64,000 nt of DNA. Origin: an uncultured Porphyromonadaceae bacterium. GTDB lineage: Bacteria; Bacteroidota; Bacteroidia; Bacteroidales; Muribaculaceae. This document shows positions 32 through 48,951 of the stretch, in pieces. The stretch covers positions 1-64,000 of the forward strand of contig CANRWW010000013.1 in NCBI GenBank assembly GCA_947643665.1. Direction: 5' to 3'. A program made the position numbers and the translations under genes. The notes under the pieces were generated by a model that saw nothing but the letters and a program-made list of their open reading frames with translations, was not told where the DNA came from and searched no databases. Position 1 is the stretch's first letter. Each line of letters starts with the position of its first letter.

Positions 32-65
32 ATTGCCATAGTCTCGCGAATTCTCCGTATCTTTG
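32..65 (+). promoter_or_regulatory. Bacteroidetes-type promoter for the TBDR operon
   Basis: ATTG (32-35), 22-nt spacer, TATCTTTG (58-65). Confidence 0.55.
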
Positions 66-218: not shown

Positions 219-3008
219 ATGAGATTAAAACTTTTTCTATCTCTGATGACATCGGCTATGCTACCCGCCATGGCACAAACTGCCGTGGTGACCGGAAGCG
301 TGATTGACGCCGATACCGGCAGCCCTATACCAGGAGCCGTAATCACAATCCAGGATCAAGGACTTTCAGTCACTGCCGGACCCGCCGGAGATTTCCGCAT
401 CAGCAACGCCCGCCCCGGTGAAGCTGTGCTTCTCATCCAGGCACCGGGATATGACAGCTCTGCCGCACAGACACGCCTGTTCAACGGTCAGAGCGTGGAC
501 GCTGGCGCACTCCGCCTCTTTACCGACTTTGCAGACAACGAATTTGTGATTGACAACCAGACGGAAGCGCTTATAGACGAGAGCATCATGGACGACGAGA
601 ACGACGCCTCACAGGCTGTAGGCGCGCTCACCGGCTCCAACGACGACATTTATTATAAATTCACCCGTTACGGGTACTCGCCTCTCTACTCCAACTACCG
701 CGGCTACCAGAGCACATGGCAGGAGACATACATCAACTCCCTCCCCATGAACGACCTCATCCGCGGCGGCTTCTCATTCCAGCAACTCGCAGGAATGACC
801 TCACGCGCTTTCCGCAACAGCACCGCCACCGTAGGCCTTGGGGCATCGGCCTATGGATTCGGCGCCATCGGCGGCAGCCAGAACTTCAACACCATCACAG
901 ACACCTATGCACCGGGCTTCAACGGCGCGTTGAGCTACACCAACTCAAACTACAAGTTCCGCGCAATGGCCACATACTCCACCGGCATGATGGAAAACGG
1001 CCTTGCCTTCACCATCAGCGCCATAGGTAGATTTGCCGACGAAGGTGTGGTGCCTGGCACATTCTACAACGCAGGAGGACTATTCCTCTCTGCCGAGAAA
1101 ATGCTAAACCGCAACCACTCCATCACCCTCACCGCATGGTGCAACCCACGCCAATATGCAAACGGAAAGTCTGTGGTAGGCGAAATCTTCGACCTCACGG
1201 GAGACCATCTCTACAATCCTACATGGGGATGGCAGAACGGCAAAAAGCGCTCCGACAACATACGTGAGAACTTTGACCCCACGGTAATGCTCAACTGGCT
1301 CTACAAGACAGAGAAAACCACCCTCAACACCGGTGCAGCTTTCCGCTGGGTGCACTTCGCCCGCACACGCCTGAGCTACTTCAAAGGAACCGATACCCGT
1401 CCGGACTACTACAAGAACCTCCCGTCCTACTATCTCAACCCGCTTGACGCCACCAATTACAACCCTGAAAAAGCGGCGTTCTACGAGGAACAATGGAAAA
1501 ACAACGAGGACTTCCGCCAGCTTGACTGGGACGGCTTCTACCTTACCAACGAGCTCAACAACATACAGAACGAGAACCTGCCTTATGACAAGCAGCTCGG
1601 TTCCACATACATGCAGCAGATGGAGCACTCCAACCAGTTCAACTTCATACTCGGCTCCACCCTCAACCACCGCCTCAACGACTACATGAGCCTTCAAGGC
1701 GGTGTAAACCTCAACTATACACGCACAAGCGACTATGCCACCGTGAAAGACCTCCTCGGAGGCCAGTTCTGGTATGACGTGGACGGCTTCTCTGAACGTG
1801 AGATATACAACCCCGAGGCATCACAGGATATCATGCAGAATGACCTCAACCACCCCAACCGGCGTGCAGTAAAAGGCAACCGCATAGGATGGGATTACAA
1901 CATCCACGCCCTCAAGGTACAGGGATGGCTCCAGAACCAGATCAACCTCCCCAAATGGGATGTGAACTACGGCATCAAGATGAGCTACGAGCAGTTCTAC
2001 CGCCACGGCAACATGCGAAACGGCCGCGCACCCCTGAACTCTTTCGGCAACTCAAAGACAATACACTTCGACGACGCTTCCATAAAGGCGGGCGCCACAT
2101 ACAAACTTGACGGACGCAACTATTTCACCCTGCAGGCTGAATACGGCACCGTGGCTCCTGTAATCAACGACGTGTACATCTCACCCCGCGTGAAAGACAC
2201 CACCGTAGACAACATACAGAGCACCCGCGTCTTCTCAGCCGATTTCCGCTACACATGGAACTACCGCCGTTTCCGCGGCTCAATCTCGGCATACTTCACC
2301 GACATGAGCAACGCCATCGAGCGCTACGGCTTCTGGGACGAAAGCCTCAACGCCTTCTGTAACTTCGCACTCAACGGCGTACACCGCCAGTACAAGGGCA
2401 TAGAGCTTGGCATGGCATACCAGATCACCTCCGCACTCCGCGTGAGCTTCGCCGGAAACTTCTCCCGCTACCGTTATGCCAACAACCCCATGGGCACGCG
2501 CTCGGTCGAAAACGGCCTCCAGCCAGACCAGACCACACAGTTCTACCTCAACAACTACTATTGCACCTCCACACCCCAGACCGCTTTCAACATCGCACTG
2601 GCATACAACGCCCCCAAGATGTGGTTCTTCAACGTGGACGCATCATGGCTTGCCGACTACTACGTGCGCCTGGCATACCCGCGCCACCAGATCATTGATG
2701 GACTGGCAGCCTATGCCGGCTCCCCCGCCGAGCTTAACCGCCTCGAAAGCGAGTTCACCGCACAGGAAAAACTGCCAAACAACTGGGTAATGAACGCATC
2801 AGTGGGCAAGGTGATATACATCAACCGCCAGGTAAGCCTCAACCTCAATGTATCGGTAAGCAACGTGATCAACAACCGTAACCTTATCACACAGGCTACA
2901 GAGCAGTTCCGTATTGACACCAAATACTACAACCCCAACGCATTCCCCACCAAGTACATGTACGCACAGGGAATCAAGGTATATGTAAACGCCGGGGTAC
3001 GCTTCTGA
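219..3008 (+). CDS. TonB-dependent receptor with N-terminal carboxypeptidase-regulatory-like domain
   Basis: Signal peptide MRLKLFLSLMTSAMLPAMAQ, CarboxypepD_reg-like GSVIDADTGSPIPGAVITI, long beta-barrel protein ending in aromatic-x-F (NAGVRF). The ORF-track start at 63 is a TTG overlapping the promoter; ATG at 219 precedes the signal peptide. Confidence 0.85.
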   Translation: MRLKLFLSLMTSAMLPAMAQTAVVTGSVIDADTGSPIPGAVITIQDQGLSVTAGPAGDFRISNARPGEAVLLIQAPGYDSSAAQTRLFNGQSVDAGALRLFTDFADNEFVIDNQTEALIDESIMDDENDASQAVGALTGSNDDIYYKFTRYGYSPLYSNYRGYQSTWQETYINSLPMNDLIRGGFSFQQLAGMTSRAFRNSTATVGLGASAYGFGAIGGSQNFNTITDTYAPGFNGALSYTNSNYKFRAMATYSTGMMENGLAFTISAIGRFADEGVVPGTFYNAGGLFLSAEKMLNRNHSITLTAWCNPRQYANGKSVVGEIFDLTGDHLYNPTWGWQNGKKRSDNIRENFDPTVMLNWLYKTEKTTLNTGAAFRWVHFARTRLSYFKGTDTRPDYYKNLPSYYLNPLDATNYNPEKAAFYEEQWKNNEDFRQLDWDGFYLTNELNNIQNENLPYDKQLGSTYMQQMEHSNQFNFILGSTLNHRLNDYMSLQGGVNLNYTRTSDYATVKDLLGGQFWYDVDGFSEREIYNPEASQDIMQNDLNHPNRRAVKGNRIGWDYNIHALKVQGWLQNQINLPKWDVNYGIKMSYEQFYRHGNMRNGRAPLNSFGNSKTIHFDDASIKAGATYKLDGRNYFTLQAEYGTVAPVINDVYISPRVKDTTVDNIQSTRVFSADFRYTWNYRRFRGSISAYFTDMSNAIERYGFWDESLNAFCNFALNGVHRQYKGIELGMAYQITSALRVSFAGNFSRYRYANNPMGTRSVENGLQPDQTTQFYLNNYYCTSTPQTAFNIALAYNAPKMWFFNVDASWLADYYVRLAYPRHQIIDGLAAYAGSPAELNRLESEFTAQEKLPNNWVMNASVGKVIYINRQVSLNLNVSVSNVINNRNLITQATEQFRIDTKYYNPNAFPTKYMYAQGIKVYVNAGVRF

Positions 3009-3036
3009 TATATCATACTAAAACAGAGACGAAACG

Positions 3037-4434
3037 ATGAAAAAATCGATAATATACATGGCGGCTCTCCTCGCCGCCGCAGGATTCACCGCCTGCGACA
3101 ACGACTTCGAACGCCCTCCATATTATGAGATCGGCGACGACATCAAAGTTGAAGCCAACACCACCATAGAGGAGCTTAAGAAAGCCTTCACACAGGATGT
3201 GAACTATTTCAACACCCCCATAGGCACCAAGGAAAACGGCGAACACTATATAATCCGCGGCCGTGTGACATCGGACACCCGTGCCGGTAACGTATTCAAG
3301 AAAGTCTGCGTAGAAGACGAGACCGGAGGCATAATCTTCTCGGTGAACAACAGCAGGCTTTACGAAGTATCGCCTTTCGGCCAGGAAGTGATCGTAGACT
3401 GCACAGGCATGTATTACGGCAACTACGGCTTCGGAGTGCAGGTAGGCTCTGAAGGGGAGGCACATTCCACCACCGTGGCTCCGTCACGCATGCCCGAAGA
3501 CATGTGGAATGCCCATGTGACAGCTGTCGGTGTGCCTGATCCGGCACTGGTAAACGTGCATGAAGTGACACTTGACGACCTCCGCACCATCTATTCTGAC
3601 CCTGAGACACGCCTCCAGTGGCAAGGGTTGCTTGTGAAAGTAAAAGATGTGAAGTTCCAGACACCGGGCACACAGCTCGGCAAACAGAACCAGAGCAATA
3701 ACTCCGTATATCTGGTACCCGCTGCCGGCGGACAGGGACGTCTTGCCATCAACACATCCGGCTACTCTACCCTGTGGGACATCTACGCGCCCAACGGCAC
3801 AGGAGACATCACAGGTGTGCTGTCTGTCTACAACACCGACTGGCAACTCGCGCTTAACGACGCAGAAGGTATCGGTGACACATTCACCCCATGGATCCCC
3901 GCTCCCCCCGCCCTCTATGAGGAGACATTCGCCACAAACCAGGGCAGTTTCACCATACATAACATAGAAATGACAGGTCCCATGACCTATGTATGGAAAC
4001 ACGACGCATCGCGAGGCTATATGGTGGCGTCAGGCTTCGTATCAGGAGCTTCATACGCATCCAGCTCCTGGCTCCTGTCTCCGGTACTGGATCTCTCCAA
4101 GACAGAGGAACCATCCTTCACTTTCGACCACGTGACCAACAAATTCCCCGACCTTGAGACCGCCAAGCGCCATGTATCCATGGCCATCAGCGTAGACGGC
4201 GGAGACTGGCAGACCATAGCCATCAAGGAATGGTCCACAAACGCAGACTGGAACTTTGTGAATGCCGGCACCTACGACCTCTCAGCCTATGCAGGCAAGA
4301 AGATCATGATCGGCTTCCACTATACCAGTGAGGACGGGGCTTCCGGCTCATGGGAAATAAAGAACTTCGCTGTAAACGGCAAGGGCACCGTGACCGCCAC
4401 ACCTGGCGACACTTTCCCCGGCGGCTCCAATTAA
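3037..4434 (+). CDS. DUF5689-type lipoprotein with choice-of-anchor-J-like C-terminal domain
   Basis: Lipobox AAAGFTAC; OB-fold-like block YIIRGRVTSDTRAGNVFKKVCVEDETGGIIFSVN; C-terminal SSWLLSPVLDLSKTEEPSFTFDHV...SGSWEIKNFAVNG. Confidence 0.75.
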   Translation: MKKSIIYMAALLAAAGFTACDNDFERPPYYEIGDDIKVEANTTIEELKKAFTQDVNYFNTPIGTKENGEHYIIRGRVTSDTRAGNVFKKVCVEDETGGIIFSVNNSRLYEVSPFGQEVIVDCTGMYYGNYGFGVQVGSEGEAHSTTVAPSRMPEDMWNAHVTAVGVPDPALVNVHEVTLDDLRTIYSDPETRLQWQGLLVKVKDVKFQTPGTQLGKQNQSNNSVYLVPAAGGQGRLAINTSGYSTLWDIYAPNGTGDITGVLSVYNTDWQLALNDAEGIGDTFTPWIPAPPALYEETFATNQGSFTIHNIEMTGPMTYVWKHDASRGYMVASGFVSGASYASSSWLLSPVLDLSKTEEPSFTFDHVTNKFPDLETAKRHVSMAISVDGGDWQTIAIKEWSTNADWNFVNAGTYDLSAYAGKKIMIGFHYTSEDGASGSWEIKNFAVNGKGTVTATPGDTFPGGSN

Positions 4435-4466
4435 CAGAACCCTACCCATAAGAAGAACTTAACGTT

Positions 4467-7232
4467 ATGAAAATTCTGAAATCAATCGCAATAGGTCTCG
4501 CTGCCATAGCAGCCCTGGGAGGATTCACTGCCTGTCAGGACGACTTTGACAACCTCAATGTGCTTGAGACCGTACCCAAGGCCGAGCTAGAGCCTAACAC
4601 CACCATACTTGAACTCAAAAAGGCCTTCTGGCAGGACGGCGTGGAAAACTATGCCACACAGGTAGGCACAAAAGAGGACGGATCGCACTATATAATCTCC
4701 GGACGCGTCATCACATCCGACTATTCCGGAAACATCTACAAGAGCCTTGTCATACAAGACGAGACAGCAGCCATCCAATTCTCCATCAACGCCTACAGCC
4801 TATATCAGAAATACCGCTACGGCCAGGAAATAGTGATAGACCTCACCGGCCTCTACGTAGGCAAATACATGGGCCTGCTACAGGTAGGAGCCAAGGGACA
4901 AAACTCGTCAGGCACGGAACAGACCTCATACATGAGCGACGCCCGTTTCTACTCGCTGGCACAGCTCAACGGACTGCCTGAGCCATCCAAAGTAAACATA
5001 TATACCCTTGAGAACCTCAGCCAGCCGGCAGCCGACAACATGCGCTGGCAGAGCGAACTGGTGCGTTTCAACAATGTTATCGCCGAACCACAGGAAAGCA
5101 ACCTCAACGATGAGGGGATCTTCAAACCTGTGTACACTTTCGGCATCTACCACGAAAATTTCGACCAGATCGTGAAAATTGACGGTACGGGCTACAAGCT
5201 GCGTACAAGCGGTTATTCCAATTTCTACTACGAACTTATGCCAACAGAGCCGTTCGACTTGCAGGCACTCCTGTCGTACTACAACGGCGACTGGCAGCTT
5301 TTCATCATCAACTACTCTGATGTGATGAACGCCGGCGACCCCACAATACCGGCAGGTTCGGAAAAGAACCCGTGGACCATTGACCAGGCTATAGAAAACA
5401 TAAACTCCGGTATCACCACATACGGGTGGACCAAAGGCTACATCGTGGGCACAGTGGCTCCGGAAGTTACAGAAGTTACCTCCGATGCCGACATCGAATG
5501 GGGTTCAGAAGCCACCCTGTCCAACACCGTGGTGATAGCACCTTTCCCCGAATGCCAGGACTACAAGTCATGCATCATCGTGCCGCTGCCGCAGAACTCA
5601 GTCATGCGCAGCAAAGTGGCACTCAAGGAGAACCCCGGCAACCTCGGCAAAGAGATCGCCGTACAGGGCACACCAGACATGTACATGGGCACATTCGGCA
5701 TAACCGGCAACCTCGGTACAGCAGGGGAGTTCAAACTCGAAGGGCTTGACCTCTCCGGCAAGGGGGATGGAACAGAAGCTAGCCCCTACAACTGCGCACA
5801 AATCATAGCCATGAACCCGCAGTCAACCACTGTGGCCGTAGAGAGTGGCATTTGGGTTCGCGGTTACATCGTGGGCTACTATGAGGAATACGAGGCGCAC
5901 TTCCAGGCGGCGACCACACAGCGTGCTAACATCCTCATCTCAGACGTCCTCAACCCCACAGACAAGGCACAGACCGTATGCGTGCAACTTGTTGCACAAT
6001 CTGACGCCCGCAACGCCCTCAACCTTGTAGACAATCCAGACAACCTGGGCAAACAGGTAGAGCTCAAAGGCGACGTGATGAAATACAATACCCTGCCCGG
6101 CATCAAGAACACTTCGTCATACAAACTTGACGGACAAAGCGGTGGCGACACCCCAACTCCGGGGCAAGCGCTCTTCTCACAGACATTCAAGGAGAGCCAG
6201 GGCGATTTTGTAATCCACAACGTGGAGCTCAACGCCGCATTGAGCTATGTCTGGAGCCACGACGCTTCATACGGGTATATGAAAGCCTCCGCTTTCGTGG
6301 CAGGCGCCTCACATGCCTCCAACTCCTGGCTCATGTCGCCTGTGCTTGACCTCAAGTCCGCACAGAACCCCACCCTGACTTTCGACCATGTGACCAACAA
6401 ATTCCCCGATATCGCCACAGCCAAACAGCAGGTATCGCTCGCCATAAGCGTTGACGGGGGAGACTGGCAGACAGTGGCCATACCCAACTGGTCAACCAAT
6501 GCCGACTGGACATTTGTAAACGCCGGCACCATAGACCTCTCAGCCTATGCCGGAAAGAAGATCAAGGTTGGATTCCACTACACCAGCACAGAAGGGGTAT
6601 CGGGCTCTTGGGAAATAAAGAACTTCGCAATCAACGGCACCGGCACCGTTACCGCCATCCCGGACACCACATTCCCAGGAGGCGGGGACACACCCGGCGG
6701 TGAAGACCCTGTAACACCCCCTGCCGGCGACTACAAAGGCGATTTTGACACCTTCAACGGTGGCGAACCCAAAAGCAGCCCCTATGGCACATACACCAAC
6801 GCCACCGGGTGGACGGCAGAAGGAAGCATCATCCTCGGAGGCCAGACTTCAGGAGTGGACGACGCCAACCCACGTTTCAGTTTCATCGGCGGACCGAAGA
6901 CATTAGCGGTATGCCTCAACGGTAAGACATCCGCCCCTGGCAAACTGACTTCACCGGTGCTTACAGACGGCATCAAAACCCTCACATTCAAGTACGGCAC
7001 AGCCTACAGCACATCAGCATCTAAGTTTTCCTTCACTGTAAAAGTGCTCCAGAACGGTACAGTTGTCAAAGAGGAGACGCTCACACCTGACATGACAATC
7101 AAGACAGCATACGACGCTTCTATCGAAGTAAACGCTACCGGCGACTTCACTATCGAAATTGTCAACAACTGCCCAAGCGGACAGGACAAGAACCTTGACC
7201 GCGTGGCCATCTGGAACCTCACATGGGACTGA
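4467..7232 (+). CDS. Multidomain lipoprotein: DUF5689-like, two DUF6359-like blocks, choice-of-anchor-J, C-terminal jelly-roll-like domain
   Basis: Lipobox ALGGFTAC; paralogous to 3037..4434 at both the DUF5689 and anchor-J parts; internal repeats WTIDQAIENI.../YNCAQIIAMN.... Confidence 0.72.
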   Translation: MKILKSIAIGLAAIAALGGFTACQDDFDNLNVLETVPKAELEPNTTILELKKAFWQDGVENYATQVGTKEDGSHYIISGRVITSDYSGNIYKSLVIQDETAAIQFSINAYSLYQKYRYGQEIVIDLTGLYVGKYMGLLQVGAKGQNSSGTEQTSYMSDARFYSLAQLNGLPEPSKVNIYTLENLSQPAADNMRWQSELVRFNNVIAEPQESNLNDEGIFKPVYTFGIYHENFDQIVKIDGTGYKLRTSGYSNFYYELMPTEPFDLQALLSYYNGDWQLFIINYSDVMNAGDPTIPAGSEKNPWTIDQAIENINSGITTYGWTKGYIVGTVAPEVTEVTSDADIEWGSEATLSNTVVIAPFPECQDYKSCIIVPLPQNSVMRSKVALKENPGNLGKEIAVQGTPDMYMGTFGITGNLGTAGEFKLEGLDLSGKGDGTEASPYNCAQIIAMNPQSTTVAVESGIWVRGYIVGYYEEYEAHFQAATTQRANILISDVLNPTDKAQTVCVQLVAQSDARNALNLVDNPDNLGKQVELKGDVMKYNTLPGIKNTSSYKLDGQSGGDTPTPGQALFSQTFKESQGDFVIHNVELNAALSYVWSHDASYGYMKASAFVAGASHASNSWLMSPVLDLKSAQNPTLTFDHVTNKFPDIATAKQQVSLAISVDGGDWQTVAIPNWSTNADWTFVNAGTIDLSAYAGKKIKVGFHYTSTEGVSGSWEIKNFAINGTGTVTAIPDTTFPGGGDTPGGEDPVTPPAGDYKGDFDTFNGGEPKSSPYGTYTNATGWTAEGSIILGGQTSGVDDANPRFSFIGGPKTLAVCLNGKTSAPGKLTSPVLTDGIKTLTFKYGTAYSTSASKFSFTVKVLQNGTVVKEETLTPDMTIKTAYDASIEVNATGDFTIEIVNNCPSGQDKNLDRVAIWNLTWD

Positions 7233-7288: not shown

Positions 7289-7316
7289 CTGTGGCGTCCG
7301 GTACCGGACGCCACAG
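7289..7316 (+). terminator. Perfect 28-bp palindrome downstream of TBDR/lipoprotein operon
   Basis: CTGTGGCGTCCGGT|ACCGGACGCCACAG then TTTCC, 56 nt after the stop. Confidence 0.7.
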
Positions 7317-8002: not shown

Positions 8003-9325
8003 ATGAAGAAACTTTACACTTTACTCCTTGGTGCGGTCGTAGCGCTCTCCGCTTCCGCCAGCGCACTTGCACCGCAACCGATTGCTTCCAAAATGGCAAA
8101 GCCTACAAAGCAGATGACAGCCAAACTGTCTCTTAAAAGTTTTGCTAAAGACGCACCTTCAAAAATCGGAGCAAACGTATCCATAGATGAAATCGCAGGC
8201 GAATATGAATGGACATATACAAATGCTATTGAACCAGGTGGCGACGCAGTCGGCACCGCCATTCTGGAAATAAAAGATGCAGATGCCGGGGTACTTTCCC
8301 TCACTCTGGGCAATTGGACAATCGAAGCGACATATTCAAAAGGTAACCTGAGCATCGCTCCAGGCCAGGATCTCGGTTACAATCAGGCAAACAAGATGCA
8401 GGTATATACTTACCACTGGCATTGGGTTCCCGATGGAGACGACTATACAACCAGTCCTCTTGACACCCCGATGATCGGTAGCGCATCCTTTGATGATAAC
8501 GATAATGTGATTATCGAATTTGATGGTGATGATATCCTGCTTATCGGCAATGAAAAAGTAGGATTCTTCATCGGATCATACAACAACAAGTTCGCTCCCG
8601 AATCAGAATGGGAAGACCAGCTTATGCCTGCAGAAGGCTGGGTTAGGCATTGTACTTCTACATTTACAGACGGATGGCAGGTTGCAGGTTACGGAGCTGA
8701 TCCAGCAGAGTTCCCATACGATGTAGTAGTGGAAAAGAACGTGTCAGCAGACTACGATGGCGTGGAATTATATCGTATTGTCAATCCTTATGGTGCAGGG
8801 ACTCCTTTATACAGCTATAACACAGATCCTAACGGCGGCGCTGGATATATCCTCTTCTCTCTGCAGATACCTGAATTTGTAATGGCTTATCCAGCAGTTT
8901 ACTCCGGTCTCACCGATGAATACGGCGCATATCTGAACTGCAACCTTGAAGGATGGGGTTTTATTTTCGGAGACCAATTAATGGGCAATAAAAACTGGAC
9001 ACTCCAGGATCTGATTGACAAACTCCAACTTGAGAAGTTATCAGCATATGAAAACGGCCTCATCACATTCCATAACTGCGTTTTCGCAACCAAGCAAGAC
9101 CCAACAGGGGCATTTAACTGGAAAGACGACGCCGGAAATCCCATCATCTTCCCCTCTACCCTTACACTTGCCAACACCGAAAATGGAGTTGATAATGTAG
9201 CAGCAGACCATGACGGCATTGTAGAATACTACAACCTCCAGGGCATGCGTGTAGAAAACCCGACAAATGGAATCTACATCAAGAAAGAAAACGGCAAGAC
9301 TTTCAAAGTACGCGTAGTCCGCTAA
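8003..9325 (+). CDS. Secreted protein of unknown function with Bacteroidales C-terminal YYNLQGMRVENPTNGIYIKK tail
   Basis: Signal peptide MKKLYTLLLGAVVALSASASA; conserved-type C-terminal tail (YYNLQGxRVxNPxxGIYI); own promoter and terminator. Confidence 0.65.
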   Translation: MKKLYTLLLGAVVALSASASALAPQPIASKMAKPTKQMTAKLSLKSFAKDAPSKIGANVSIDEIAGEYEWTYTNAIEPGGDAVGTAILEIKDADAGVLSLTLGNWTIEATYSKGNLSIAPGQDLGYNQANKMQVYTYHWHWVPDGDDYTTSPLDTPMIGSASFDDNDNVIIEFDGDDILLIGNEKVGFFIGSYNNKFAPESEWEDQLMPAEGWVRHCTSTFTDGWQVAGYGADPAEFPYDVVVEKNVSADYDGVELYRIVNPYGAGTPLYSYNTDPNGGAGYILFSLQIPEFVMAYPAVYSGLTDEYGAYLNCNLEGWGFIFGDQLMGNKNWTLQDLIDKLQLEKLSAYENGLITFHNCVFATKQDPTGAFNWKDDAGNPIIFPSTLTLANTENGVDNVAADHDGIVEYYNLQGMRVENPTNGIYIKKENGKTFKVRVVR

Positions 9326-9736: not shown

Positions 9737-12178
9737 ATGAAAACATTCCTGAAAATTATTTTTACAACATTATTGTTTTTACCCCATAACCAGACTACAA
9801 ATGCAGGAGAAATCGATGACCGGACGGTAGTTATAAACCGCCAGCCAAAGGTCTGGAAAACATTCCCGCTGTCGGAAGTACGGCTTTTGCCCGGAAGCCC
9901 CTTCCACCACGCGATGGAGGTATCACGGGGATACCTGCTTGACATGGATGTGGAAAGGATGCTCAACGGACTGCGTAAACGGGTGGATCTCCCTGCCAAA
10001 GCGCCCTATCCGGGATCCAACCAGCCGGAAGGCACACGCCCAGGCGACATGGCACACTACCTCTCAGGCACATCGCTGATGTATGCACAGACCGGAGACA
10101 CACGCCTGCTTGACCGGGTAAACCATATCATAGACGAGATGTGCAAGGTGCGCGACGAGTACCACCGGAAGGGGGAACGGGTGCATTATGATTTCGAAAA
10201 AATACTCAAAGGGGAACTGCTGCTCAACCGCCCGGACGATTGGGGAGCACCTTGGGGCGGAACATCAGGAAACGCCTTCTACAAGATCCATAAATACCAT
10301 GCCGGACTGCGCGACGCCTACCTGTACTGCGGCAATAAACAGGCTCTCGAATTATGGATAGAGCATGCCGACCAGATAGCAGATTTCGTAATGGCATGCA
10401 ACCCCGACCTGTTTGAAGGGTTCCTTGACATAGAACATGGAGGAATGAACGCCGTATATGCCGACCTGTATGCACTGACAGGCGATGAACGCTATATGAA
10501 GGTGTCACGCCGCTTCAACCACCAGAAAGTGATACTGAACATTGCCGACGGCCACGACGTGCTCTACGGCCGGCATGCCAATTTCCAGACACCCACATTT
10601 GAAGGAACGGCACGCCAATACCAGCTGACAGGCGACGAGGTGAGCCGGCTTGCCACAGAAAACTTTCTTGAAATGGCATACGGCGGCCATATAAATTGCA
10701 TAGGCGGCAACAGCTGCTATGAACGGTTCGGGCGTCCGGGAGAAACCACAAAACGGCTCGGATACACTTCCAGCGAGACCTGCAACACATACAATATGCT
10801 CAAAGTGGCACTCAACGCATTTGAATCAGGAGGAGACCTGCAACACATGGACTACTTCGAGCGGGCGCTATACAACCATATCCTCGCTTCACAAGACCCT
10901 GAGACCGGCGGAGTCACCTATTACACCAGTACTATTCCGGGCGGATTCAAGACCTACAGCGACCGCTTCAACCTGCAAGGGGTATGGTGCTGTGTCGGCA
11001 CCGGCATGGAAAACCATTCCAAATATGGTGAAGCCGTGTACTTCAACAACGGCAATGTGCTGTACGTGAACCTCTTTATACCTTCGACCCTTGATTGGAA
11101 AGAGAAAGGGCTGAAAATGAAACAACAGACAGACTTCCCCCAGACCGACCGCACTACCCTGACAATCGAAGAGTGCGGCAATTATGCAGCCCCCATCTAT
11201 CTGCGCTATCCGCAATGGGCAGAAAAAGGCGTGAGGATAAGCATAAACGGCGTGCGGATTCCTGTAAAAGCGAAACGGGGAGAATACATCGCCATAGCGC
11301 ACCCATGGAAACAGGGCGACCGCATAGAGGTGGAGATGCCACAGACATTCCGCCTTGAGGCAGCCGATGACGATCCCTACATGAATGCCATATGCCGGGG
11401 GCCGATCGTCTATGCCGGAATACTAGGCAGCGACCATATGCCTGCCGACCGCGTAAACGGCGCCGGAAACAATAACCGCGTTGTGCCGGAAAACGACATA
11501 CCCACATTCATAGCCGATAAACATGACCTTGACAGCTGGATAAAACCGACCGGGAAACACCCCATGGAATATGCCACGGAAGGAGCGGGAAATCTCCACG
11601 GAAAGAAAAAGGAACTGACGTTGCTGCCATATTACATGACCCACCACACGCGCTACTCTCTATACCTGAAAGTTTACACGCCACAGGAAATGGCACTCCG
11701 CAAACGCGTGGTAATTGACGAACTGCGGCCATCGTATGCCGAAGATGAAAAAGCACACAACATGCAGTGCGGCACATCGCGGCTCGTAAGCCAGGGTGGC
11801 CACTCTCCGGCTCTTGGATTCAACTCCTGGGAGCACACACGGCTCGGGCGTGAGGCAGACGACTGGTTTTCATACGATCTGAAAACCGTCAAGAGAGAAA
11901 CCAATTACCTAGTGGTCACATACTGGGGCAACGAGAATGAAGGACATGAATTCGACGTGTCAGTAAATGGAGTGAAAGTAGCCACCGAGATCTTATTTGA
12001 CAAAATGCCACTGACATTCTACGAAACCGTTTATGAAATACCCGCAGAAGCTATCGGAGACGGAGGAAAGGCCACAGTCTCGTTCAAAGGGCATGAGGGG
12101 AAAAAAGCCGGCACCGTCTTCGCCTTGAAAACTACTACAGATCCCTGCCGGTTCCCCAACTACAATTTTTATTTTTAG
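9737..12178 (+). CDS. Beta-L-arabinofuranosidase-like glycoside hydrolase (GH127/GH146-type, DUF1680)
   Basis: Signal peptide; SSETCNTYNMLK and WCCVGTGMENHSKYGEAVYF motifs of the Cys/Glu GH127-like clan. Confidence 0.82.
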   Translation: MKTFLKIIFTTLLFLPHNQTTNAGEIDDRTVVINRQPKVWKTFPLSEVRLLPGSPFHHAMEVSRGYLLDMDVERMLNGLRKRVDLPAKAPYPGSNQPEGTRPGDMAHYLSGTSLMYAQTGDTRLLDRVNHIIDEMCKVRDEYHRKGERVHYDFEKILKGELLLNRPDDWGAPWGGTSGNAFYKIHKYHAGLRDAYLYCGNKQALELWIEHADQIADFVMACNPDLFEGFLDIEHGGMNAVYADLYALTGDERYMKVSRRFNHQKVILNIADGHDVLYGRHANFQTPTFEGTARQYQLTGDEVSRLATENFLEMAYGGHINCIGGNSCYERFGRPGETTKRLGYTSSETCNTYNMLKVALNAFESGGDLQHMDYFERALYNHILASQDPETGGVTYYTSTIPGGFKTYSDRFNLQGVWCCVGTGMENHSKYGEAVYFNNGNVLYVNLFIPSTLDWKEKGLKMKQQTDFPQTDRTTLTIEECGNYAAPIYLRYPQWAEKGVRISINGVRIPVKAKRGEYIAIAHPWKQGDRIEVEMPQTFRLEAADDDPYMNAICRGPIVYAGILGSDHMPADRVNGAGNNNRVVPENDIPTFIADKHDLDSWIKPTGKHPMEYATEGAGNLHGKKKELTLLPYYMTHHTRYSLYLKVYTPQEMALRKRVVIDELRPSYAEDEKAHNMQCGTSRLVSQGGHSPALGFNSWEHTRLGREADDWFSYDLKTVKRETNYLVVTYWGNENEGHEFDVSVNGVKVATEILFDKMPLTFYETVYEIPAEAIGDGGKATVSFKGHEGKKAGTVFALKTTTDPCRFPNYNFYF

Positions 12179-12599: not shown

Positions 12600-13835
12600 A
12601 TGGAAAAAACTCCGAAACCCAAAAAAGCCCCCATAAAGAAGATTGATAAGAATATTGATCCCAAAGAGGCCAAAGCCAACGCCCTGGCACAGGCGCTTGG
12701 CAACATAGAGAAAAACTACGGGCGAGGCGCCATAATGAAACTCGGCGACGAAGCCATAGAGAAAGTGGAAGTGATCCCAAGCGGTTCCATCGGCCTGAAC
12801 TACGCCCTCGGTGTAGGAGGCTACCCCAAGGGACGCATCATAGAGATCTATGGCCCGGAATCGTCAGGTAAAACGACACTTGCCATACATGCGATAGCGG
12901 AAGCCCAGAAAAAGGGAGGCATAGCCGCAATGATTGACGCCGAGCACGCCTTTGACCGCTTCTATGCCGAGAAACTCGGCGTGGATGTGACAAACCTCCT
13001 CATAGCACAGCCCGACAACGGAGAACAGGCACTTGAGATCGCCGAGCAACTAATACGTTCGGCAGCAATTGACATACTGGTGGTAGACTCTGTGGCGGCA
13101 CTCACCCCCAAGAGCGAAATCGAAGGGGATATGGGAGACCGCAATGTAGGTCTGCAGGCCCGTCTTATGTCGCAAGCCATGCGTAAGCTCACGGCAACGA
13201 TCGCACGCACCAACACGGTATGTATCTTCATCAACCAGCTGAGGGAAAAGATCGGTGTGATGTTCGGGCCATCGGAAACCACTACCGGCGGCAACGCCCT
13301 CAAATTCTATGCTTCGGTGCGCGTGGACATACGCCCCGGCAGCCCCATCAAGGATGGAGACGACGTTTTGGGCAAACGGGCTAAAATAAAAGTTGTCAAA
13401 AACAAAGTGGCTCCACCTTTCAAACGCTGCGAATTTGACATAATGTTCGGCGAGGGTATCTCCAAATCCGGTGAAATCATAGACCTCGGAGTGGAATACG
13501 GCATCATCACGAAGAGCGGTTCGTGGTTCAGCTACAACGGCTCAAAACTCGCCCAGGGACGAGACGCGGCCAAGGCTGTGATTCTTGACAATCCCGAACT
13601 GGCTGAAGAACTGGAAGAGAAGATAATGGCGGCATTGCAAGGCCATGATCCAAATGCCGCTCCGGCAAATGCCACAGAAGAGGGGACAGCCGCTGACGAA
13701 GATGCACCCGCACCAAAAGCCTCCACAAAAACAAAAAGCCCTAAATCCAAGACCGAACAGCCAGAACTTGGAGAGCTTGACTTCGACACGGACTTTGACG
13801 ACGACGACGATTTCACCCTTGAAGAGGAACTATAA
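12600..13835 (+). CDS. recA: Recombinase RecA
   Basis: [23 protein letters not shown] Walker [35 protein letters not shown]; extended acidic C-terminus. Confidence 0.98.
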
Positions 13836-29261: not shown

Positions 29262-31358
29262 ATGAACAACAAAGGTATTACCGCCTTCGCCATAGCCATG
29301 TGCGCGGCAGCAACACCGCAACTACACAGCGCAGACAAACAGCAGCGCACCTCAATAGAGGCTGCCCCTCTGGCTTCTGTGGAGGTAAACGATGCTTTCT
29401 GGGCTCCCAAACTGCAACTGTGGAGCACAACCACTGCCAACGACGTGCTGAACAAGTTTGAGGGACTGCATATAAAGGACAACAATCCCGATGCACGCCA
29501 TAACACCCTTGACAACTTCAGATCCGTGGCGAAAGGCGACCGCAATACCCACAACCATGTGAACCTGCCATGGTTCGACGGCCTCATCTACGAAAGCATC
29601 CGTGGGATAGCCGACCTGCTTGCCCAATACCCCGACGATGCACTGAAAGCAAGGGTAGACAACATTGTAGATCTCATTGCCGCCGCACAAGCCACCGAGC
29701 CAAGCGGTTTCATAAACACTTATACCCAACTTGAAGAAAACGACCACCGCTGGGGAGAGAATGGCGGCCTGTTAAGATGGATGCACGATGTGTACAACGC
29801 CGGAATGCTGATAGAAGCGGGAGTGCACTATTACAATGCCACAGGGGAAACGAAACTTCTTGAAGTGGCCACAAAGATGGCAAACCTCATGTATGACTAT
29901 ATGGGACCGGCTCCGAAACGCAATCTTATCCCGGCACATTCCGGACCAGAAGAAGCGCTTGTAAAACTCTACCGCGTTTATTCTTCCGATCCTGCCCTTG
30001 CAAAAAAGATAGATGCACCGGTAAACGCAGACAACTATCTGTCACTTGCCGAGTTCTGGATTGACCAACGCGGCCACCACTGCGGATTGCCCAACTGGGG
30101 CGGGTGGGGCAACGACAATGCCGAACGCTGGATAAAAGACAACAAATATGCCGACACTTCACTTTACGGCGACCATTCGCGCCCGACATTCGGGCCATAT
30201 GCGCAAGATTCCATACCCCTTGCCGAACAGCAGACGATCGAAGGGCACGCCGTGCGCGCCACCCTGTACCTGACCGGGGTAGCTGCGGCAGCCAAAGAGG
30301 ATGGCCGCAAAGATTATACGGAATCGGCGGCACGACTTTGGGACAACATGGTCGGACGCCGCATGTATGTGACTGGTGGAGTGGGTGCCATATCTTTCGA
30401 CGAGAAATTCGGCGACGATTATTTCCTCCCTTCCGACGCATATCTTGAAACCTGCGCAGCGGTGGGCTCCGGGTTTTTCAGCGGAAACATGCATCAGATC
30501 ACAGGCGATGCGAAATATATGGACGAATACGAACGTGTGCTGTACAACGGCGTTCTCACGGGCATATCCCTCACTGGCGACAACTATACCTACCAGAACC
30601 CGCTCAATTCCACCTCACATGCCCGATGGGAATGGCACGGATGCCCCTGCTGTCCTCCGATGTTCCTGAAATTCATGGGAGCCATGCCAGGAAACATCTA
30701 CTCGCACAAAGGCAACGAAATATTCGTAAACCTCTACACCGGCAGCAAAGCCACCCTGACCGCCGGGTCAACCGAAGTGGAACTGGCACAGACCACTTCA
30801 TATCCGTTCAAAGGGGATGTGAAATTGGAGGTAAACCCTGCCAAGAAATCAAAATTCACGCTCAAACTCCGCATACCGGGATGGGCACGCTCAGAGGAGA
30901 ATCCTTTCGGACTATACACCTCCACGGTATCATCACCTGTCAGCGTAAGCGTGAACGGTAAAAAAGTCAACGCTACCCTTGCCGACGGATACGCCGTCAT
31001 AGAACGGAAATGGAAAAAGGGTGACGTGGTAACACTGGAGCTGCCGATGAAACCGCGTTTCGTCACTGCCGACCCCAATGTCAAAGATCTCGAAGGACAG
31101 GTCGCCATAGCCTATGGCCCGATGGTGTATTGCCTTGAAAGCGTAGACAACAGCAGCCTTGAAGACTTGAGCATTGACACCTCATCATCGTTGCTCCTGT
31201 CTGTGAACATGCCCGAACTGGACAACGCCCCGGCAATAAGCGGCATAGCCGTAAACCCAAAGGGAGAAAGCCTGCCGTTCCGCGCCATACCGTACTACCT
31301 GCTCGGAAACCGCACGAAAGGCTCCCCATACAAAGTTTGGATGCCTGCCAGACGGTAA
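29262..31358 (+). CDS. Beta-L-arabinofuranosidase-like glycoside hydrolase (GH127, DUF1680)
   Basis: Signal peptide; DAYLETCAAVGS and WEWHGCPCCPPMFLKFMGAMPGNIYS, matching the Glu/Cys-zinc site of GH127. Confidence 0.88.
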   Translation: MNNKGITAFAIAMCAAATPQLHSADKQQRTSIEAAPLASVEVNDAFWAPKLQLWSTTTANDVLNKFEGLHIKDNNPDARHNTLDNFRSVAKGDRNTHNHVNLPWFDGLIYESIRGIADLLAQYPDDALKARVDNIVDLIAAAQATEPSGFINTYTQLEENDHRWGENGGLLRWMHDVYNAGMLIEAGVHYYNATGETKLLEVATKMANLMYDYMGPAPKRNLIPAHSGPEEALVKLYRVYSSDPALAKKIDAPVNADNYLSLAEFWIDQRGHHCGLPNWGGWGNDNAERWIKDNKYADTSLYGDHSRPTFGPYAQDSIPLAEQQTIEGHAVRATLYLTGVAAAAKEDGRKDYTESAARLWDNMVGRRMYVTGGVGAISFDEKFGDDYFLPSDAYLETCAAVGSGFFSGNMHQITGDAKYMDEYERVLYNGVLTGISLTGDNYTYQNPLNSTSHARWEWHGCPCCPPMFLKFMGAMPGNIYSHKGNEIFVNLYTGSKATLTAGSTEVELAQTTSYPFKGDVKLEVNPAKKSKFTLKLRIPGWARSEENPFGLYTSTVSSPVSVSVNGKKVNATLADGYAVIERKWKKGDVVTLELPMKPRFVTADPNVKDLEGQVAIAYGPMVYCLESVDNSSLEDLSIDTSSSLLLSVNMPELDNAPAISGIAVNPKGESLPFRAIPYYLLGNRTKGSPYKVWMPARR

Positions 31359-42527: not shown

Positions 42528-43577
42528 TCAATACATGGGAGTAAACGGTTTCGAGGGTTTGAGATGGGAATTGGCACACCCCACGAGCTGTGTCTCCTTT
42601 GAAGTGTCAAGCCTCAAAACCGGCGCTCCATCATACAGGTCAAGTTTCATAAGGTCAATGTAATAGATACCAAAATTGGTGACTATATCAAAATAGTATC
42701 TCTTATCGCGCAGCTCTGCAAACGAGCGCCATTGTGTGGAAGACAGGTTTGGCTCTCCTTCAATCATATAAGTATACGGGACAGAAGCATCCTGTAAAAT
42801 GCTACGTGTGATACTCAATGCGAGCGACGGATCATCCACCTTTTCAACATGGTGAGCGAAATAATTCGCACGCACGCAACGGCTCGGACTTGTCACTGTG
42901 CCAGGAAGCATATTCTGGCCGCCGATTTTTCCCCAATAGTCAATTATAGCCCTCATGGCAGGCCATTCAGGATCGTTGGTCATGGCACGGTAATCGCCCA
43001 TATCGTATACCATTACCTTTCCATGGTCGAACTCCAGTATCGCCGATCGTCCGGTAGCATCCGTTATACCCCAGTGAAGCGCGGAAACCGTCCCGCCGTC
43101 GAACGTAGCACCGCCAATAGAAAAATTTTGGGCTTTGAGCACATCTATCACTTCCTGAGTGGTAGCATTCATATCAAGCAACCATCCGACGAACATCGCC
43201 AGCGACATAGCCGGCTTACCCTTGGAGTCATCACCGTTGTAAACGGTGCCTTTGCAGAAAAGGCCGTTTATGACAAGCCCCATTTCATTCATCCCCTCGG
43301 TTATGCCACCATCGTAGCCCACAGCATATACGGCACCATATTTAGAAGTCCATTCCACACTGCCCGGCACATCCGATCCTTTTTTGGCAATCCCACGGGG
43401 ATAAACATAAAGATTTGTAGGAATAGGGGTCTTCCAGTCAAGAGAACGCCCTACTACCATCAATGAGTCCAACCCTTTGTAAAGGACACGTGAGCACGCT
43501 CCCGCATCAGGAATAAAAACTGACGACGCAGCAATCATACACACCGCCGTCATTGCAGATCTGATGAATTTTTTCAT
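42528..43577 (-). CDS. Secreted linear-amide C-N hydrolase (choloylglycine hydrolase/penicillin V acylase family)
   Basis: Signal peptide ending ...PDAGA^CSRVLYKGLDSLMVVGRSLDW; AMTNDPEW; SPSRCVRANYF, the Ntn-hydrolase active-site set. Confidence 0.87.
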   Translation of the reverse strand: MKKFIRSAMTAVCMIAASSVFIPDAGACSRVLYKGLDSLMVVGRSLDWKTPIPTNLYVYPRGIAKKGSDVPGSVEWTSKYGAVYAVGYDGGITEGMNEMGLVINGLFCKGTVYNGDDSKGKPAMSLAMFVGWLLDMNATTQEVIDVLKAQNFSIGGATFDGGTVSALHWGITDATGRSAILEFDHGKVMVYDMGDYRAMTNDPEWPAMRAIIDYWGKIGGQNMLPGTVTSPSRCVRANYFAHHVEKVDDPSLALSITRSILQDASVPYTYMIEGEPNLSSTQWRSFAELRDKRYYFDIVTNFGIYYIDLMKLDLYDGAPVLRLDTSKETQLVGCANSHLKPSKPFTPMY

Positions 43578-44435: not shown

Positions 44436-47198
44436 ATGAATCCTATTAAAATATTTACGTTAGCCGGGGCTATAATATCAAGTGCGGCAAATATTGCCAC
44501 CGCGAAGACCGCTAACGATACAGGCAACATCTATCTCTATCACAACAACAGTATAATATACGCTCACGAAGCCGCACTTGTAGACAGCATCGCCTGGGAA
44601 GAAAACGGCACACAAATATCACTTTATAACGCAGAGGGTGCGAGACTCTTCACCTCGGGGATAACAGAGGTAGACAGCCTTTCAACAAACTGCCACACAC
44701 CTAAGGCCGATGTCCTTGATGTGGTGTTCAACGAAGACGGCACTGCCACTGACATATCACCCATGGCAAACGCCATAACAACCGTAGCTTCCGAAAAACT
44801 CACGACATATTACAATCCTACATACGGCAGATATGCCGCACATTTCGACAATCCGTGGGCAGGGGCGGCAGCTGGATACTACCGCATTGATTATAAAAAC
44901 AACGAGGCTTTCAAGAGAGCCTTAGAAAGCGGCCACACTCTTGAGGTGGTGGTCATGGCTGATGAAATAAACAATTCAGAGGCAAAATTTTTCTCATCAC
45001 ATCAGGCCGGAGGTACAGGGCTGATGATCTGCAACAAGAATGACGGGCGCAAATTCAACTCATTCACATTCCTGCCTAACATTTCGGAAAGCAGTGCCAG
45101 CACATGGCGCTGGGCAAACAGCAATGTACAGCCTGTGCCACAGCAATATTACCATCTGGTAGCAGTCTACGACAAACATAACGAGACGGCAAGCATATAC
45201 GTGGACGGCGAACTGAAATGCACGACTCCCGCCAAAGGGAACTTGCGGCATGCCGCCGACAACAGCCAATGGTTTGGCATAGGTTGCGATCCCGGAGGCG
45301 ACAAGGGTGAACAGGCATGGCACGGAGACGTAGTGCTCGCACGCATATATGACAATGCCCTTACCGCATATGATGCAAAGGCATTATATGACCGACTGGC
45401 TGCCGGCGAAAAGGAACCGGAAGAAACCGAACTTCCAAAAGCCGGCGTTCTTGACATCGTATTCAACCCCGACGGCACCGCCACTGACATGTCGCCAATG
45501 GCAAATGAAGTGGAAACCATAGCATCAGACCGGTTATACACCTACTACAGCCCTGCTTTCGGAGGCTATGTAGCACACTTCAACAACGACTATGCCGGAC
45601 TTGCGACCGGATACTACCGCATAGACTATAAGGACAACGCCGTTTTCAAGCAAGCACTTGAAAACGGACATACACTGGAAGCCATATTCATGGCCGACAT
45701 TGATGTTCCCAATACCGAAGCTAAGTTCTTCTCCTCGCATGGAGCCGGCGGGACCGGGCTGATGATCTGCAACAAAAACGAGGGACGCACAGCAAACGCC
45801 ATCACCTTCCTACCCAATGTGACTGAAAACGGAGGTAGCACATGGCGTTGGGCAAACAGCGGTGTCGTGCCACAGAAAAATGTATTTTACCACGTTGTGG
45901 CTGTTTATGACAAGGATGCCCAGAAAGCACGCATATATGTAAACGGCATTCTGAAAGGTGAAGGGAACGCCCCCGGAAACTACCGCCATCCTGACCCTGC
46001 CACACTCCACTGGTTCGGCATAGGATGTGATCCCGGCACACGCAATGGAAATATTGTAGGAGAACAATCCTGGCATGGCGATGTAGCCATGGCACGTATC
46101 TACGACAAAGCCCTGACAGCCGACGATGCAGCCAATCTATGGAAGGCTGTAAAAAACAAAATCGAATACAAAGATCCCGAACTCGCACAGAATGTGCGCC
46201 TATACAGCCTCCCCGTAATACAGGGCAGGACTTACACAATCTATGGCAACGGATTCACGGAAAATGACATACTTGAGGTAACGACAACAGACAACACGCC
46301 TGTAAACACCAGCTATGCTGTAACAGACAAAGGACTGTCGCTGACACTGCCTGTAGATTTCACCACCGGTACATACCGCTTTGTCCTGCACCGCGGCGAA
46401 CAGCAACAGACGCTGGGAAATGCCACACTGACCGTAGTGGAATCCATGCCCAAAGGCGCCGAGATAATCGCACATCGCGGGCACTGGACAGCAGAAGGAG
46501 CAGTACAAAACTCACGTGCCTCCCTCCAGGCTGCCATGGACATCAAAGCCTATGGAGCTGAGACAGATATCTGGATCACGACAGATGACCACCTGATGAT
46601 AAACCATGACCGCACATTTAACGGTGTGACCATATGCGAATCCACATACGCACAATGTAAAGACCTTATCCTCAGCAATGGCGAAAAGATGCCACAGTTA
46701 CAGGATTTCCTTGATATCGTAAAAAATGCACCGGAAAACCCCACACGTCTCGTTATTGAGATAAAAGACCATGGCAACCGCACTCTTGACGAACGAGCTG
46801 CAGAAGCCACTGTAAAAGCAGTTGAAGAGAGCGGCATGAAAGGGGATGAGAAAATCAAATATATCTCTTTCAGCCAGGATGCCTGTAAGAAAGTCATAGC
46901 ATTAGAGCCAGAAGCAGAAGTGGCGTTCATATGCGCCAATGCAAACAACGCCCTTACACCGCAATCTCTTTTTAACCAGGGCTACCATGGTTTAGACTAT
47001 GAAATAGGGCTGCTCCGCAACAACCTGCGATGGATCAAGGAAGCCCACGACCTCGGCATAATCGTGAATGTCTGGACCGTAAACAATGCCTCCGACATTA
47101 TTGACATGATGCGGCAAGGTGTTGACTTTGTCACCACAGACAACCCTGAGACAGGACTTGACATCAAACACCATTTCGACTCCAACCAGCCGGAATAA
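44436..47198 (+). CDS. Secreted glycerophosphodiester phosphodiesterase with two tandem LamG-like domains
   Basis: Duplicated blocks KADVLDVVFNEDGTATDISPMAN... and KAGVLDIVFNPDGTATDMSPMAN...; C-terminal GDPD EIIAHRGHWTAEGAVQNSRASLQAAMDIKAYGAETDIWITTDDHLMINHDRTFNG. Confidence 0.85.
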   Translation: MNPIKIFTLAGAIISSAANIATAKTANDTGNIYLYHNNSIIYAHEAALVDSIAWEENGTQISLYNAEGARLFTSGITEVDSLSTNCHTPKADVLDVVFNEDGTATDISPMANAITTVASEKLTTYYNPTYGRYAAHFDNPWAGAAAGYYRIDYKNNEAFKRALESGHTLEVVVMADEINNSEAKFFSSHQAGGTGLMICNKNDGRKFNSFTFLPNISESSASTWRWANSNVQPVPQQYYHLVAVYDKHNETASIYVDGELKCTTPAKGNLRHAADNSQWFGIGCDPGGDKGEQAWHGDVVLARIYDNALTAYDAKALYDRLAAGEKEPEETELPKAGVLDIVFNPDGTATDMSPMANEVETIASDRLYTYYSPAFGGYVAHFNNDYAGLATGYYRIDYKDNAVFKQALENGHTLEAIFMADIDVPNTEAKFFSSHGAGGTGLMICNKNEGRTANAITFLPNVTENGGSTWRWANSGVVPQKNVFYHVVAVYDKDAQKARIYVNGILKGEGNAPGNYRHPDPATLHWFGIGCDPGTRNGNIVGEQSWHGDVAMARIYDKALTADDAANLWKAVKNKIEYKDPELAQNVRLYSLPVIQGRTYTIYGNGFTENDILEVTTTDNTPVNTSYAVTDKGLSLTLPVDFTTGTYRFVLHRGEQQQTLGNATLTVVESMPKGAEIIAHRGHWTAEGAVQNSRASLQAAMDIKAYGAETDIWITTDDHLMINHDRTFNGVTICESTYAQCKDLILSNGEKMPQLQDFLDIVKNAPENPTRLVIEIKDHGNRTLDERAAEATVKAVEESGMKGDEKIKYISFSQDACKKVIALEPEAEVAFICANANNALTPQSLFNQGYHGLDYEIGLLRNNLRWIKEAHDLGIIVNVWTVNNASDIIDMMRQGVDFVTTDNPETGLDIKHHFDSNQPE

Positions 47199-47262: not shown

Positions 47263-47397
47263 CTATATCCTCATATTATCCCTTTTTTGTATCCGGCATT
47301 TCCACAGGAGAGTAACACGTATTTTTGGAATCTTTATTTTCCAAATCGGTTATATTTGACTATTTTTGTATGCGGAAACCAATGCATTGTCACTACC

Positions 47398-48951
47398 ATG
47401 AAAAAGATAACGTTCACAGTGGGAGCCGCGCTCATGGCAACCATGACCTCCTGCCGCACAGACAACAACAAACGTCCTGAGAAAAGCGAAACGCCCAATA
47501 TCATTGTCATCCTGGCTGATGACCTCGGTTTCGGAGATGTCAGTTTCTATGGTTCAAAGACCATTTCCACCCCGAATATCGACAGCCTTGCCCGTGGAGG
47601 CGTATGCTTCAACAACGGATATGCATCCTCATCCACATCTACCCCCAGCCGCTATGCGCTGCTTACCGGAATGTACCCATGGCGCGACGATATAAAAATC
47701 CTGCCGGGTGACGCTCCACTTGTGGTATCCACCAACCAGGAGACGCTTCCAAAAATGATGCAGAAAGCCGGATACGCCACAGGCGCCATAGGGAAATGGC
47801 ATCTCGGCATGGGAAATGGTACAGTGAACTGGAACGACACCATACGCCCTGGAGCACGCGAAATAGGATTTGACTACTCATGCATCATAGCTGCCACCAA
47901 CGACCGCGTACCCACAGTATATGTGGAAAACGGCGGTGTCGTAGGCCTTGAAGCCGACGATCCGATATATGTGGACTACGAGAAGAACTTTGAAGGCGAA
48001 CCCACAGCCCTGGAAAACCCTGAGATGCTGAAAATGCATTGGGCACATGGCCACCAGAACTCCATAGTCAACGGCATACCACGCATAGGTTACATGAAAG
48101 GTGGTACAAAAGCCCGCTGGACCGACGAGGATATGGCAGATTATTTCGTCGGCAAAGTGAAAGAATTCCTTCAAGAAAACAAAGAGCGGCCGTTCTTCCT
48201 CTATTACGGGCTACATGAGCCTCATGTGCCGCGTGCGCCACACTCGCGTTTTGCAGGAACAACCGGCATGGGACCCAGAGGTGATGCAATAGCCGAAGCA
48301 GACTGGTGTGTGGGAGAATTGATGAAAGAGCTGGAGCGGCTCAACATTGCAGACAACACACTAATAATTTTCACAAGCGATAATGGTCCGGTGCTTAACG
48401 ACGGATACCTTGACCAGGCACGCGAACTTGCCGAAGCACGCGGACACAAACCTGCCGGCGGCCTGCGAGGCGGCAAATACAGCCTCTTCGACGGAGGCAC
48501 ACATATCCCCCTCTGTGTATATTGGAAAGGCAAAGTGAAACCTACCGTAAGCGACGCGCTCTTCTGCCAGATGGATATAATGGCCTCACTTGCCGAACTT
48601 GTAGACGGTGAAATATCCGACACCCTTGACAGCAAGCCACTGCTCAACACCTTGCTTGGCAACGACCTCAAAGGTAGGGAACATCTGGTAATCGAAAATC
48701 AAGGCAAACTGGGGCTGCGCATGGGTGATTACGCATATCTGCCTCCATATACCGGTCCCGAGACAAACCAGACGGGCAACGAACTTGGAAACCTCGGCAC
48801 TGAGGGACTGTTCAATCTCAAGGAAGATCCGGCACAGACAAACAATCTTGCCGCAACCGACACAACACTTCTGGCACAAGCCAAGAAGATATTCAGCCAC
48901 GAAACAGACGGTTTCTACCGCCCGTTTGTAGAGGAGATCCCGCTTAAATAA
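47398..48951 (+). CDS. Ser-type arylsulfatase (alkaline phosphatase superfamily)
   Basis: NIIVILADDLGFGDVSFYGSKTISTPNIDSLARGG; SSTSTPSRYALLTGMYPWR (S-x-P-S-R signature); IGKWHLGMG; IIFTSDNGP. Confidence 0.93.
   Translation: MKKITFTVGAALMATMTSCRTDNNKRPEKSETPNIIVILADDLGFGDVSFYGSKTISTPNIDSLARGGVCFNNGYASSSTSTPSRYALLTGMYPWRDDIKILPGDAPLVVSTNQETLPKMMQKAGYATGAIGKWHLGMGNGTVNWNDTIRPGAREIGFDYSCIIAATNDRVPTVYVENGGVVGLEADDPIYVDYEKNFEGEPTALENPEMLKMHWAHGHQNSIVNGIPRIGYMKGGTKARWTDEDMADYFVGKVKEFLQENKERPFFLYYGLHEPHVPRAPHSRFAGTTGMGPRGDAIAEADWCVGELMKELERLNIADNTLIIFTSDNGPVLNDGYLDQARELAEARGHKPAGGLRGGKYSLFDGGTHIPLCVYWKGKVKPTVSDALFCQMDIMASLAELVDGEISDTLDSKPLLNTLLGNDLKGREHLVIENQGKLGLRMGDYAYLPPYTGPETNQTGNELGNLGTEGLFNLKEDPAQTNNLAATDTTLLAQAKKIFSHETDGFYRPFVEEIPLK

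Follow-up and report, generated by a model that had tools for sequence, protein, structure and literature searches.

A TonB-dependent receptor and two tandem DUF5689 lipoproteins form a predicted DNA uptake complex in a Muribaculaceae-like genome

The three-gene operon found at the beginning of the window (the entire 64,000-nt stretch of DNA analyzed here, from an uncultured Porphyromonadaceae bacterium) probably encodes an outer-membrane surface complex for the uptake of DNA or, more generally, of nucleic acid. We favor this reading because deletions of the Riemerella anatipestifer genes RA0C_RS04915 and RA0C_RS04920 abolish transformation, because a nuclease associates with the locus and because the DUF5689 domain displays an OB-fold signal; conserved lipoboxes followed by acidic residues and the presence of ComEC, DprA and a ComF-like protein in the genome lend further support. 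The passage of DNA across the outer membrane of Bacteroidota, for example in Porphyromonas gingivalis, has been stated to be unknown (PMC11532111). A conserved three-part candidate that recurs across many families of Bacteroidia opens the question of DNA import to direct testing and bears on gene transfer among gut and oral bacteria. If the prediction is true, the locus would add to the few examples in which a TonB-type barrel transports a polymer as large as DNA. The wide distribution of the system, its linkage to a nuclease and a variant lacking ComEA appear to be new here.

The operon comprises a TonB-dependent receptor (TBDR) gene followed by the lipoprotein genes LP1 and LP2 (Table 1), with intergenic gaps of 28 and 32 nt. 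The open reading frames and domain matches agree in this respect with the initial annotation, which had described a TBDR and two lipoproteins, each with a lipobox cysteine, and no SusD. The order of TBDR and lipoprotein genes is kept at orthologous loci and the operon arrangement is therefore not due to chance. A terminator had been proposed downstream of LP2, and the perfect palindrome found there (folding energy -27.4 kcal/mol, z -6.2, with a weak T-tail) likely marks the end of transcription. The single promoter proposed at the same time could not be established: a Bacteroidota-type box could be read by eye, but no sigma-70-type promoter was detected upstream of the TBDR gene on the + strand, and the candidate box is considered weak because the frequency of such motifs in the window does not exceed chance. 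It is to be noted that the start of the window coincides with a contig end, which leaves any genes upstream of the operon out of view in the source genome. An Rfam search gave no match.

Table 1. Coordinates of the operon, of associated features and of the Riemerella lipoprotein gene. Positions refer to the window unless a locus is named.
Feature	Position	Strand	Basis or remark
TBDR-type beta-barrel gene	219..3008	+	CarboxypepD_reg; Plug in 8/18 orthologues; full-length Riemerella profile match; BLASTP
LP1, DUF5689 + choice-of-anchor J lipoprotein	3037..4434	+	Domain matches; BLASTP to RA0C_RS04920; Cys + acidic signal
LP2, LP1 tandem paralogue with two inserted DUF6359 and an extra C-terminal beta domain	4467..7232	+	Domain matches; alignment with LP1
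Perfect 28-bp palindrome, two 14-nt arms	7289..7316	+	Likely transcription end
Candidate Bacteroidota-type promoter: TTG 33-35, TATCTTTG 58-65	33..65	+	Read by eye; weak
recA	12600..13835	+	5.4 kb downstream of the operon; context, outside the operon
Riemerella DUF5689 lipoprotein gene	L074 14387-15796		M949_1556 family

Downstream of the operon, an exported 440-aa protein (8003-9325, +) has no Pfam or NCBIfam match and shows weak similarity to proteins adjoining the TBDR locus in three relatives. The recA gene lies close to the TBDR locus only in the window, in one congener (L047) and in Riemerella, and a conserved recA linkage was therefore rejected. Among the other genes of the window are two of the GH127 beta-L-arabinofuranosidase type (9737-12178 and 29262-31358, +), a gene encoding a choloylglycine hydrolase-family protein whose scores fall far short of the cut-offs for bile-salt hydrolase and penicillin amidase (42528-43577, -), and a gene whose product combines Laminin_G_3 domains with a glycerophosphodiester phosphodiesterase (44436-47198, +) and which adjoins a sulfatase gene (47287-48951). 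Two PorU-type type IX secretion sortases (50208-53693 and 55026-58589, -; 540 and 837 bits for a cut-off of 420) lie on either side of a Rex repressor gene and a single small gene; such closeness of two full PorU-like genes looks unusual.

The window TBDR carries a signal peptide, a CarboxypepD_reg domain (4e-12) and a C-terminal aromatic residue, and no canonical TonB box was recognized in it. The Plug model, silent on the window protein, reached 5.8e-7 in the best of the orthologues that it matches. Searching with a profile of 18 Bacteroidales TBDRs recovered the Riemerella TBDR over its full length (1.6e-213, 709 bits), the next barrel scoring 137 bits, and a BLASTP comparison of the window and Riemerella proteins gave 27% identity across the whole length (6e-93). 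Across the class sample, orthologues scored above 700 bits and paralogues at most 232. Judged by these comparisons, the window TBDR is a full-length orthologue of R. anatipestifer RA0C_RS04915. A PDB sequence search with the barrel returned nothing beyond the CarboxypepD domain, and an AlphaFold model of the TBDR alone was uninformative (pLDDT 30).

In R. anatipestifer, a bacterium of ducks, a transposon screen and markerless deletions identified RA0C_RS04915, encoding a CarboxypepD_reg outer-membrane protein, and RA0C_RS04920, encoding a DUF5689 and anchor protein, as essential for natural transformation, which fell below detection in either deletion mutant (Huang et al. 2021, PMC8459023). 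The system can thus no longer be called uncharacterized, as it had been in the initial annotation. An R. anatipestifer genome, which we retrieved via a published comEC primer, displays the order recA, dinB, sdhB, sdhA, sdhC, comEC, two genes, a PF19580 nuclease gene on the opposite strand, the TBDR gene and the DUF5689 lipoprotein gene. This order is that of the published locus tags, which fixes the identity of RS04915 and RS04920 and places the nuclease at the RS04910 position. Transformation is also reduced in R. anatipestifer tonB mutants, partly through iron (PMC8383284). RS04915 homologues were previously placed in Flavobacteriaceae only (PMC8459023), a range which is too narrow. Attempts to transform F. 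johnsoniae were unsuccessful in the conditions used, despite the presence of homologues in Flavobacterium, and this speaks against the DNA-uptake reading.

RS04920 falls in the NCBIfam family M949_1556 (591 bits for a cut-off of 475), which takes its name from a gene with a reported effect on O-antigen/LPS and antigenicity, although membership of the family does not prove that the two are the same gene. This connection between the Riemerella transformation lipoprotein and an LPS/antigenicity gene was not drawn in the literature found. The complex might accordingly import or assemble some other surface ligand, such as an LPS component, with an indirect loss of transformation in Riemerella. We regard this as unlikely, given that both single deletions lose transformation completely (PMC8459023) and that the conserved nuclease linkage and the OB-fold signal point to nucleic acid.

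LP1 is composed of a DUF5689 domain (1.1e-42) and a choice-of-anchor J domain and is homologous to RA0C_RS04920 (BLASTP 8e-14), while in LP2 DUF5689 (1.5e-42) is joined by two copies of DUF6359, choice-of-anchor J and, at the C-terminus, a beta domain without family assignment. The anchor-J domains of the two proteins are near-identical when aligned, and LP2 is by sequence comparison a tandem paralogue of LP1. Neither lipoprotein matched SusD/RagB. The lipobox cysteine is followed by acidic residues in both (CDNDFE in LP1, CQDDFD in LP2), as in nearly all the lipoproteins examined. Acidic residues after the cysteine are expected of Bacteroidota surface lipoproteins, and LP1 and LP2 are thus presumably exposed on the cell surface. 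In congeners whose TBDRs are 80 and 74% identical to that of the window, LP1 is 39% and LP2 53-57% identical; this faster evolution of the lipoproteins as compared to the barrel fits exposed proteins under diversifying pressure.

Three OB-fold modules had been proposed in LP2. The nucleic acid binding OB-fold family PF01336 matches 5 of 12 DUF5689 members (best 7e-4), one member of the same set matches the OB domain of DNA polymerase alpha, and the DUF5689 domain of LP2 itself gave an E-value of 0.075 only, below the Pfam cut-off. These matches lend tentative support to the OB-fold idea for DUF5689. The support does not extend to DUF6359, which matched no OB-fold profile; a relationship between DUF6359 and DUF5689 was likewise rejected by profile comparison. 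PDB sequence searches with DUF5689 and LP2 yielded no related solved structure, and the AlphaFold model of LP1, computed from a two-row alignment, was uninformative (pLDDT 38).

The TBDR was found in 31/37 genomes of the window's family, which we take from its gene content to be Muribaculaceae, and in 9/24 from other Bacteroidales families. One or two DUF5689 lipoprotein genes lie directly downstream on the same strand at 28 of the 29 TBDR loci examined. Of 148 evenly sampled Bacteroidia genomes, 33 encode a TBDR orthologue; viral contigs gave one weak match. A search of related neighborhoods for linked extracellular nucleases, suggested in the initial annotation, proved productive: an exported DNase I-like nuclease of the endonuclease/exonuclease/phosphatase family (PF19580) is encoded in all 33 TBDR-positive genomes as compared to 56 of the 115 TBDR-negative ones (Fisher p 5e-9), and its gene is located within about 3 kb of the TBDR gene in 25/33 genomes, belonging to 13 of 16 families. 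This spread over families is a stronger argument for linkage than a binomial figure, which treats genomes as independent and is not to be taken at face value. The adjacency emerged from the present comparison and was not used to define the Riemerella-type pair. The linked gene is usually divergent, 190-550 nt from the TBDR gene, and twice lies directly upstream on the same strand. In the window genome the nuclease is present in one copy, unlinked to the operon (contig C63:770-1735), as in most of the window's family, and retains its export signal and the conserved family motifs. In the nuclease tree, a branch with 98/97 support has on one side all the TBDR-linked copies together with the C63 copy, and on the other second copies and copies from genomes of other families without the TBDR; members of the window's family devoid of the TBDR keep the linked-type nuclease. 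A PDB sequence search with the nuclease gave no related solved structure.

These neighborhoods also bear on a SusC-type glycan-uptake locus or a siderophore/haem TBDR locus, a reading that we consider highly improbable. CarboxypepD_reg is typical of SusC-type barrels and a GH127 gene is found 2.5 kb downstream of the operon, but SusD is missing, orthologous loci do not share the GH127 gene and the recurring neighbor is a nuclease. The consistent linkage to a glycan utilization locus or siderophore system that would have spoken against the initial annotation was looked for and not found, and both readings were rejected on gene neighborhoods. The idea of a complex capturing nucleic acid rather than glycan is, on the other hand, well supported by the Riemerella orthologues, the conserved nuclease neighbor and the DUF5689 OB signals.

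The window genome encodes ComEC, DprA and RecA as well as a ComF-like protein scoring below the curated cut-off; these four proteins are near-universal and constitute weak evidence for transformation. ComEC, present in 146/148 Bacteroidia genomes, is uninformative as to co-occurrence with the TBDR. A ComEA-like HHH protein is essential in Riemerella (PMC8459023), as is ComEA in P. gingivalis (PMC11532111). No such protein could be detected in the window genome, in which the HHH search gave only a Tex-type HHH_3 protein and no homologue of the Riemerella HHH protein was found. Matches in the window's family are essentially restricted to Tex and long polymerase-type HHH_3 proteins, whereas most other Bacteroidales families possess a multi-HHH protein of 200-400 aa. 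Over the class sample, the HHH protein is uninformative (26/33 TBDR-positive vs 83/115 negative genomes). The window's family therefore keeps the uptake module without one known transformation partner. The missing ComEA-like protein, the unlinked nuclease of the window genome and the lack of a recognized TonB box all count against DNA uptake.

Alternatively, the same machinery could serve nutrition in Muribaculaceae and have no part in transformation: captured extracellular DNA would be cleaved by the nuclease, and the resulting oligonucleotides would be taken in as a source of phosphate or nucleosides. The near absence of ComEA-like HHH proteins from a family in which the TBDR is so frequent, the duplication of the lipoproteins and their enlargement with DUF6359, and the retention of the nuclease gene would all suit such a function. 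Conversely, ComEC, DprA, the ComF-like protein and RecA are kept, an objection weakened by their near-universality, and the nearest experimental precedent is transformation. We consider this variant possible but rather doubtful; as a sub-case of nucleic-acid uptake, its probability overlaps with that of the broader reading.

Under the preferred reading of nucleic-acid uptake, LP1 and LP2 would be anchored at the surface and capture extracellular DNA via their OB-like DUF5689 domains. The secreted DNase I-like nuclease would trim or nick the substrate, and the DNA or its fragments would then cross the outer membrane through the TBDR channel, probably energized by TonB; this order of events is our conjecture. 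In Riemerella the imported DNA would be handed to ComEC for natural transformation, and in the Muribaculaceae-like host it may follow the same ComEC route or serve nutrition. The literature found reports no measurement of DNA binding or transport by these proteins, and the uptake role, which we judge probable, stays a prediction. More tentatively, and as a proposal that we hold to be somewhat short of probable, a TonB-type barrel, together with OB-fold lipoproteins on the surface and its own nuclease, might constitute a general outer-membrane DNA importer replacing the type IV pilus in Bacteroidia, which in Muribaculaceae would have become separated from ComEA and turned to DNA scavenging with duplicated, fast-changing lipoproteins.

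The closest known counterpart is the RS04915/RS04920 pair of Riemerella, with which the window operon shares an orthologous full-length TBDR gene and, next in line and equally oriented, a gene for a DUF5689 and choice-of-anchor J lipoprotein, as well as a homologous exported PF19580 nuclease, ComEC, DprA, a ComF-like protein and RecA encoded in the genome. The window differs in having two lipoproteins in tandem instead of one, LP2 being extended by two DUF6359 and a C-terminal domain, in a nuclease gene that does not adjoin the TBDR gene, in the lack of a detectable ComEA-like HHH protein, in its order (Bacteroidales) and in a TBDR that is merely 27% identical. With SusCD systems, the operon has in common an outer-membrane barrel with CarboxypepD_reg at its N-terminus and, downstream, a gene for a lipoprotein partner; this partner is however a DUF5689 protein and not SusD, and the conserved neighbor is a nuclease, without conserved glycoside hydrolases. 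In other Gram-negative bacteria, external DNA is moved into the periplasm for ComEC by type IV pilus/secretin uptake. The window channel, a TonB-type barrel with surface lipoproteins, is not homologous to that apparatus, but its proposed role would be the same, the delivery of external DNA to the periplasm for ComEC.
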